DNA from: Candidatus Gastranaerophilales bacterium
GTDB taxonomy: Bacteria > Cyanobacteriota > Vampirovibrionia > Gastranaerophilales > Gastranaerophilaceae
Length of the DNA stretch: 64,000 nucleotides
Direction of reading: 5' to 3'
NCBI GenBank assembly: GCA_944323335.1
Contig: CALUSB010000006.1
Location: forward strand, 1 to 64,000
Below are positions 58,721 to 59,347 of this stretch, piece by piece; position 1 is the first letter of the stretch, and each line of letters begins with the position of its first letter. Under the pieces are notes generated by a model, which saw only the letters and a list, made by a program, of their open reading frames with translations, was not told the origin of the DNA and did no database searches. Position numbers and translations under genes: made by a program.

Positions 58721-58749
58721 TTGAAAAATGATTAAAAGTTATTTATAAT
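58721..58749 (+). promoter_or_regulatory. strong sigma-70 promoter of the structured RNA
   Basis: TTGAAA (58721-58726) and TATAAT (58744-58749) are separated by exactly 17 nt. The RNA closing helix begins at 58754, where transcription is expected to start. It closely resembles the tmRNA promoter at 63430-63457. Confidence 0.75.
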
Positions 58750-58753
58750 ATAA

Positions 58754-58980
58754 GCACAGGGTGATAGTTTAGCAGACTATCAAGAACTCTGTAGAGGTCT
58801 AACGGTTCTTATCTTTTAAGGTGAGAACCGTTTTTAATATGGACAAAATCAAAAAGATTAAAAATAAACTCAAATTGAAATCGCTCATATCGCCCCCTTT
58901 CTAGTCGGGAACCAACCCGAGGTCTACAGTATAGTTGGTGGTCAGTTTCCTATAAAAAAGAGTTCTTCTTTACCCTGTGC
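58754..58980 (+). ncRNA. unrecognised structured non-coding RNA, about 227 nt
   Basis: No open frame with a start signal fits here, but pairing is extensive. GCACAGGGT (58754-58762) pairs with ACCCTGTGC (58972-58980), closing the whole RNA. GATAGT/ACTATC (58763-58768/58776-58781) forms a small hairpin. AAGAACTCT (58782-58790) pairs with AGAGTTCTT (58959-58967). A 12-bp hairpin is at 58802-58831 (ACGGTTCT stem, TTTTAA loop). TCGGG/CCCGA (58905-58909/58916-58920) has a loop ACCAA that can pair with TTGGT (58935-58939), a pseudoknot. GTAGA/TCTAC (58791-58795/58923-58927) may add a helix. It does not look like RNase P, SRP RNA or tmRNA. 6S RNA cannot be excluded, but the branched, pseudoknotted layout argues against it. 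Confidence 0.7.
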
Positions 58981-59046
58981 ACAATTTACAATGTTCAAAT
59001 TGATTGGTATGAAATATTATAGCAGTTTTTACTCATTTTTATAATA

Positions 59047-59074
59047 AAAAGACCCCTTGATAGGAGTCTTTTTA
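59047..59074. terminator. terminator hairpin (structured RNA; old tRNA-His terminator on the other strand)
   Basis: AAAAAGAC and GTCTTTTT flank a short G/C step (AAAAAGACCCC..GGAGTCTTTTT, one mismatch) around 59047-59074, ending in a T-run on the plus strand. On the minus strand it directly follows a duplicate of the tRNA-His 3' end, so it may be the original tRNA terminator. Confidence 0.65.
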
Positions 59075-59089
59075 TGGGGCGGGTGATGG
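59070..59089 (-). repeat. duplicate of tRNA-His 3' end (att-like direct repeat)
   Basis: The 20 nt TTTTATGGGGCGGGTGATGG here are identical to 59266-59285, which includes the last 15 nt of tRNA-His with CCA (minus strand CCATCACCCGCCCCA). Only this fragment of the tRNA is present. Confidence 0.85.
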
Positions 59090-59270: not shown

Positions 59271-59347
59271 TGGGGCGGGTGATGGGGTTCGAACCCACGA
59301 ATATCGGAACCACAATCCGAGGCCTTAACCACTTGGCGACACCCGCC
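59271..59347 (-). tRNA. tRNA-His (anticodon GTG), CCA encoded
   Basis: On the minus strand the acceptor GGCGGGTG pairs with CACCCGCC, followed by encoded CCA. The extra 5' G (G-1) opposite C73 is the histidine identity element. The anticodon arm TCGGA-TTGTGGT-TCCGA gives GTG, and the T arm carries GTGGGTTCGAACCCC with the GGTTCGA loop. Confidence 0.97.

Follow-up and report, generated by a model that had tools for sequence, protein, structure and literature searches.

Comparative genomics points to an undescribed family of type I toxin-antitoxin modules in Gastranaerophilales

The window (the whole stretch of 64,000 nucleotides that was analysed) contains, between positions 58721 and 59074, a locus which on comparative-genomic grounds is very probably a type I toxin-antitoxin module of an undescribed family. 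Two overlapping genes on opposite strands explain this locus better than the single unknown structured RNA proposed by a sequence-only reading: the minus strand encodes a membrane peptide of 26 to 29 residues, which is probably a self-toxin, and the plus strand is predicted to give a short antisense RNA that would silence the peptide gene. Purifying selection on the open reading frame (ORF), the plus-strand promoter, the strand of the terminator, the covariation of the helices and the co-variation of two direct repeats (R1=R2) were computed directly; toxicity, expression, repression and the order of folding events we infer. The label "toxin" rests on the architecture, because the peptide matches no known toxin family. 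The features of the locus are as follows.

58721-58749, plus strand: promoter of the antitoxin RNA, TTGAAA-17-TATAAT; 11 of 12 consensus positions matched in the family
58754-58762, unstranded: outer inverted repeat P1, left arm (partner 58972-58980); 97.9% of cells paired, mostly invariant
58756-58837, plus strand: predicted antisense antitoxin RNA of about 82 nt, with putative ends
58763-58781, plus strand: antitoxin-RNA hairpin GATAGT...ACTATC; double-sided changes in 4 of 6 pairs
58782-58790, unstranded: inner inverted repeat P2, left arm (partner 58959-58967); compensatory changes in 5 of 6 pairs
58794-58801, plus strand: direct repeat R1 GAGGTCTA, putative recognition seed of the antitoxin RNA
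58799-58888, minus strand: predicted toxin ORF of 29 aa, MSDFNLSLFLIFLILSILKTVLTLKDKNR; HMM E = 1.8e-11
58801-58837, plus strand: 12-bp hairpin followed by a U-run, predicted to be the intrinsic terminator of the antitoxin RNA
58893-58904, minus strand: toxin mRNA, Shine-Dalgarno region CTAGAAAGGGGG; almost no variation across alignment A2
58906-58919, minus strand: leader hairpin CGGG...CCCG directly upstream of the Shine-Dalgarno region; 99% of cells paired
58919-58926, minus strand: direct repeat R2, whose complement lies in the leader of the toxin mRNA and is predicted to pair with R1
58959-58967, unstranded: P2, right arm
58972-58980, unstranded: P1, right arm
59016-59024, minus strand: likely toxin promoter, extended -10 TGCTATAAT; assigned from sequence, weakly in the TTGAAA subtype

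The claim that no reading frame explains the locus did not survive the inspection of the minus strand, where an ORF running from 58888 to 58799 follows a strong Shine-Dalgarno sequence and is conserved across the family. In particular, the conserved block CATATC-N-CCCCCTTTCTAG reads on this strand as CTAGAAAGGGGG-N-GATATG, that is, a strong Shine-Dalgarno sequence with a start codon, and in 66 of 75 copies CTAGAAAGGGGG and a spacer of 4 to 6 nt are followed by exactly 26 codons for a MDNFNISLLLIFLILYILKNGSYLNR-like peptide of the form M[DEN][NKD]FN[IL]xL.L...LIL..LKNGSxLNR. The pN/pS of 0.38 in the peptide frame is the lowest among the six frames compared, and most of the variation in this frame sits at third codon positions. 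Residues 6 to 18 are strongly hydrophobic (13-residue hydropathy of 3.1 to 3.6) and the C terminus is basic, with R or K in most copies; the peptide thus presents the features typical of type I toxins, being shorter than 60 aa and hydrophobic, with a predicted transmembrane stretch and a cationic C terminus. Pfam, NCBIfam and PADLOC held no relatives of it, and the family profile retrieved no PDB chain at E <= 10.

As regards the transcription of the peptide gene, copies of the TTGACA type show a clear minus-strand promoter (score of at least 9/12 in 80%, versus 6% after shuffling), and in copies of the TTGAAA type, the subtype of the window, a minus-strand -35/-10 pair was not found above chance. 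No clear terminator of the toxin mRNA was found; the 12-bp hairpin is common to both strands, with wobble pairs optimised for the plus strand only. The copy in the window has lost 1 nt from an A-run compared with the 26-aa family form, and this deletion alters the C terminus of the toxin. Since this deletion is common to genomes G001, G003 and G009, and the ORF in G014 is truncated, the lineage of the window may be losing the system; the window's own copy may be inactive owing to the frameshift near the C terminus.

The peptide profile is present in 102 of the 286 genomes of the window's order, mostly metagenome bins, with up to 10 copies per genome; these and the other counts are taken over related sequences and do not represent independent events. 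All the positive genomes belong to the window's own family, with the sole exception of G045, and when 386 genomes sampled from the phylum were searched, all the peptide matches fell inside the order. Furthermore, blastn recovered close copies from part of the genomes of the window's genus and more divergent ones from other genera, including a tandem pair in G031, and the conserved central pattern occurs at no fewer than 80 loci in reference genomes, most of them labelled Candidatus Gastranaerophilales or Melainabacteria. Distant copies in G045 (of another family) and G070 have helices of different sequence and keep the ORF, the Shine-Dalgarno sequence and an 11-nt R1=R2. Several loci hold two to five copies inside 8 kb; tandem arrays of three to five copies were observed at L054, L160, L161 and L163. 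Phage-like neighbours occur next to some copies (an endolysin near L107, phrog_6034 proteins near L054, L077 and L119), and others adjoin chromosomal genes, some of them housekeeping. The anticipated neighbourhood of tRNA-His and an M48 peptidase gene is kept in near relatives, and the other copies lie elsewhere.

Searches of phage and plasmid collections with blastn gave no match, and the terminator pattern was absent from IMG/VR; three pattern matches in IMG/VR were rejected as copies of the element, their other strand resembling an ordinary Shine-Dalgarno sequence plus ATG. A second weak match in the window's own genome, G000 (C13), devoid of promoter, repeats and Shine-Dalgarno sequence, was dismissed as a chance occurrence. 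An intact copy (L110, contig JAMPCZ010000023.1) sits in a bin labelled Muribaculaceae, where misbinning of a Gastranaerophilales contig is likelier than a transfer to Bacteroidota. Downstream of the element in the window, the last 14 bp of tRNA-His (GGGGCGGGTGATGG) occur twice, at 59076-59089 and 59272-59285. The two copies enclose a segment of about 196 bp that is absent from the close relative G003 and resembles a small insert in a tRNA attachment site.

The peptide could also be a small membrane protein without toxicity that, for instance, regulates a membrane complex, with a cis antisense RNA controlling its translation. Its lack of any family match and the housekeeping genes adjoining some copies are compatible with such a role; however, the patchy, multi-copy and tandem distribution is typical of self-toxin modules and would be odd for a housekeeping regulator, and the prophage-like surroundings of some copies, the damaged copies in some lineages and the module-specific seeds of the paralogues described below point in the same direction. 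We therefore consider this explanation improbable, and a self-toxin remains the preferred reading of the peptide.

On the plus strand, the proposal of an unclassified functional RNA gene with its own near-consensus promoter is supported, with conserved and covarying homologues in related genomes. The promoter TTGAAA-17-TATAAT lies at 58721-58749, and the plus promoter scores 11 of 12 against the consensus in each of the 79 aligned family copies, the usual forms being TTGACA-17-AATAAT and TTGAAA-17-TATAAT. The one departure falls in the -10 element (TTGACA with AATAAT) or in the -35 element (TTGAAA with TATAAT), and the constant score of 11/12 looks as if the strength were kept slightly under consensus. 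The 12-bp hairpin (58801-58832) is strong and directly followed by a T-run. Across the family, its plus reading holds 182 G.U versus 3 A.C pairs, and it therefore folds as plus-strand RNA. The plus-strand product is, from these sequence signals, most likely an antisense antitoxin of about 81 nt (the median of the predicted lengths in the family) with putative ends, consisting of a 5' hairpin, a single-stranded seed (R1) and the intrinsic terminator. In the window copy the predicted antitoxin RNA folds with z = -5.35; over the family, R1 is unpaired at 0.72 versus 0.28 for the remainder of the predicted RNA. The locus thus presents what is expected of the antisense RNA of a type I system, namely, a promoter and a terminator on the opposite strand together with computed cognate pairing. 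A plus-strand ORF within the core was also considered and rejected, its start codon not being conserved.

The remaining structural elements that had been read from the sequence are present as well: the 9-bp inverted repeat 58754-58762/58972-58980, the second one formed by AAGAACTCT (58782-58790) and AGAGTTCTT (58959-58967), the small hairpin 58763-58781, the hairpin 58906-58919 with its loop AACCAA and a GTTGGT downstream, and the terminator-like hairpin 59046-59073. The stretch 58754-58985 is structured far past chance expectation (folding z = -6.2 versus shuffled sequences), and the covariation check proposed for the homologues, once run, gave 18 pairs with double changes for the whole structure versus 9.0 (sd 1.4) after shuffling (0/500). 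In distant copies, the sequence of P1 is replaced jointly with that of the partner arm, and very diverged copies retain inverted repeats of other sequence. In P2, the interior mismatches fit better as G.U pairs in minus-strand RNA. The leader hairpin, when read on the plus strand, holds 0 G.U versus 10 A.C pairs, and it therefore fits the minus-strand RNA. The covariation of P1 and P2 fits a putative fold-back that joins the 5' and 3' ends of the toxin mRNA, comparable to AapA/hok, and the Shine-Dalgarno sequence is mostly closed in the predicted folds of this mRNA (0.27 unpaired).

A stand-alone structured non-coding RNA of about 227 nt, transcribed from the plus promoter and closed by the 9-bp helices, would be in keeping with the strong promoter, the folding score and the covarying closing helices. 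Nevertheless, the intrinsic terminator, optimised for the plus strand and about 80 nt past the promoter, should stop transcription of the plus strand near 58837, the 9-bp helices, being long-range, fit an mRNA from the opposite strand, with P2 and the leader hairpin favouring that strand, the minus strand carries a conserved coding signature, and the identity of the direct repeats has no role in a single RNA. This explanation is thus very unlikely, and two opposite-strand genes remain the reading that we favour.

No known RNA family was recognised, as had been stated: no match reached the Rfam gathering thresholds, and relaxed E-values gave chance-level matches only. The suggested control for 6S RNA likewise gave no match of the RF00013 covariance model at the locus. 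A divergent 6S RNA was rejected, as G019 and G031 hold the element and a separate 6S-like RF00013 match on different contigs, and so was a divergent RNase P or SRP RNA, since G000 (1.67 Mb, 99.8% complete) carries both, together with tmRNA, elsewhere. The housekeeping RNAs being found elsewhere, the element is therefore not a disguised housekeeping RNA. RF00013 is detected in most related genera, yet in only 1 of 15 genomes of the window's genus, where 6S RNA has been lost or has diverged too far.

The top covariation pairs of the entire alignment correspond to the identity between R1 and R2. We counted 34 different strings of 6 to 11 nt, mostly 7 to 11, R1 being equal to R2 within a copy. The longest common R1/R2 string averages 8.59 for cognate repeats versus 4.78 (sd 0.16) with R2 permuted, and among 116 pairs of copies with at least 95% identity in the ORF region and different repeats, the self-match is 9.0 nt and the cross-match 3.6 nt. 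With one RNA transcribed from each strand, repeats that are direct in the DNA become complementary in trans. The predicted binding of the R1 segment to its own toxin leader has an energy of -18.25 versus -13.45 (sd 0.26) kcal/mol when permuted, so that cognate duplexes are predicted to be stronger by 4.8 kcal/mol. The R2 complement sits in the toxin leader, directly before the Shine-Dalgarno hairpin, and is predicted to be 0.67 unpaired in the toxin mRNA. Judged from the alignments, we take the R1/R2 identity to be trans base-pairing with module-specific seeds, as in Fst/par.

Copies within a genome weakly avoid sharing repeats (P = 0.04 for mean similarity and 0.19 for full sharing, in what is a weak test). 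Two neighbouring copies at L054/L163 have the repeat GAAATCGAAGT in common and seem to have duplicated recently. The match between R1 and R2 has been lost at L104 (4371-4598), a copy that appears chimeric with L070, and at L164, and the ORF in G014 is truncated as well; such copies are probably decaying or recombinant modules. The direct-repeat periods are 124 to 131, with one outlier of 149; an origin of the repeats by template jumping (concatemer ORF) was rejected, there being no endless frame and mostly no multiples of three. Instead of RNA pairing, the repeats might record an event at the DNA level, being recombination sites or the target-site duplication left by an inserted core. R1 and R2 do flank a conserved core of about 128 bp, but the sequence beyond them is also conserved between copies, unlike insertion into varied sites, their positions coincide with the exposed antisense seed and the open toxin leader, and none of the copies collected lacked the core. 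This explanation has hardly any probability.

On the preferred reading of trans pairing, it is possible to propose a mechanism. The hydrophobic peptide of 26 residues (29 in the window copy) encoded on the minus strand would most likely be a membrane-acting self-toxin, translated from an mRNA of about 225 to 255 nt with predicted ends and a strong Shine-Dalgarno sequence. The full-length mRNA would probably be translated poorly, its 5' and 3' ends being paired through P1/P2 and its Shine-Dalgarno sequence sequestered. The near-consensus plus promoter would give an antisense RNA of about 81 nt stopping at the intrinsic terminator, which faces the 3' portion of the toxin ORF, with the R1 seed exposed between its two hairpins. 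R1 would pair with the R2 complement in the toxin leader, directly upstream of the Shine-Dalgarno hairpin, and the antisense RNA would also pair with the overlapping 3' region of the toxin mRNA; this pairing may block translation or trigger decay by RNase III. With its own R1=R2 string, each copy would have an antitoxin that recognises only the toxin mRNA of that copy when several coexist. We lean towards the hypothesis that the family diversified mainly by swapping the short seed present once in each of the two RNAs of a locus, with near-identical toxins of one cell or phage each under their own antisense RNA only. If true, a single bacterial order would provide a natural library of about 34 strings for recognition between RNAs.

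Type I systems have been reported in Proteobacteria, Firmicutes and Tenericutes and, beyond those, as one Microcystis candidate only (PMC12390103). If our reading is true, comparative genomics alone has uncovered a large native type I family in gut bacteria that form the uncultured sister group of photosynthetic cyanobacteria. With their matched repeats, the many paralogues of this family would be a ready data set on the evolution of antisense specificity, and identity-covarying direct repeats could serve as a general signature for convergent antisense pairs missed by ordinary RNA covariation searches.

By analogy, the convergent overlapping genes, the small hydrophobic peptide, the short antisense RNA, the matched repeats and the folded-back mRNA are hallmarks of type I systems. 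In Fst/par of pAD1, a toxin mRNA of about 230 nt and a short antisense RNA are convergent, and direct repeats provide trans complementarity near the toxin translation start; these repeats are poorly conserved between homologues and are thought to confer module specificity (PMC7472228). The direct repeats of the new family would act like DRa/DRb of par_pAD1 (PMC7472228), and convergent promoters combined with trans-complementary direct repeats are shared with Fst/Ldr, the minus promoter being clear in the TTGACA subtype only. However, the peptide lacks the PXXXG motif of Fst/Ldr and has no proline in its hydrophobic stretch; different from Fst/par, the toxin is unrelated in sequence (no Pfam, NCBIfam or PDB match), there is one repeat pair, good evidence for a shared bidirectional terminator is lacking, and the phylum is another.

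AapA/IsoA of Helicobacter and relatives comprises a toxin mRNA of about 225 nt, an antisense RNA of about 80 nt and a peptide of about 30 aa, with several chromosomal paralogues, strict module specificity and a 5'-3' long-distance interaction (PMC6733600). The new family resembles it in sizes, paralogue specificity and mRNA fold-back, the 5'-3' interaction being suggested here by the covariation of P1/P2 and the strand bias of P2. The toxin is again unrelated (no PDB, Pfam or NCBIfam match), and, different from AapA/IsoA, the antisense RNA faces the 3' portion of the ORF together with the 3' untranslated region (UTR), reaching the leader via the direct repeat.

MsoT1/MsoA1 of Microcystis, a candidate type I system and the first reported from cyanobacteria (PMC12390103), belongs to the same phylum in the broad sense and has an antisense RNA that likewise consists of two hairpins and binds the ORF at its 3' end as well as the 3' UTR (PMC12390103). 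It differs, by its description, in the two predicted membrane helices of MsoT1 versus one short hydrophobic stretch here, and its homologues are reported in photosynthetic cyanobacteria, direct repeats not being reported (PMC12390103). In tisB/istR-1 and zorO/orzO, too, the antitoxin contacts the 5' leader upstream of the Shine-Dalgarno sequence (PMC4147584), and repression of the standby-site type is possible for the new family (PMC4147584); those pairs are, however, divergent and non-overlapping and have no direct-repeat basis. By toxin sequence, the family is thus not part of either Fst/par or AapA/IsoA, and it would combine the direct-repeat recognition of the former with a folded mRNA like that of AapA/hok.
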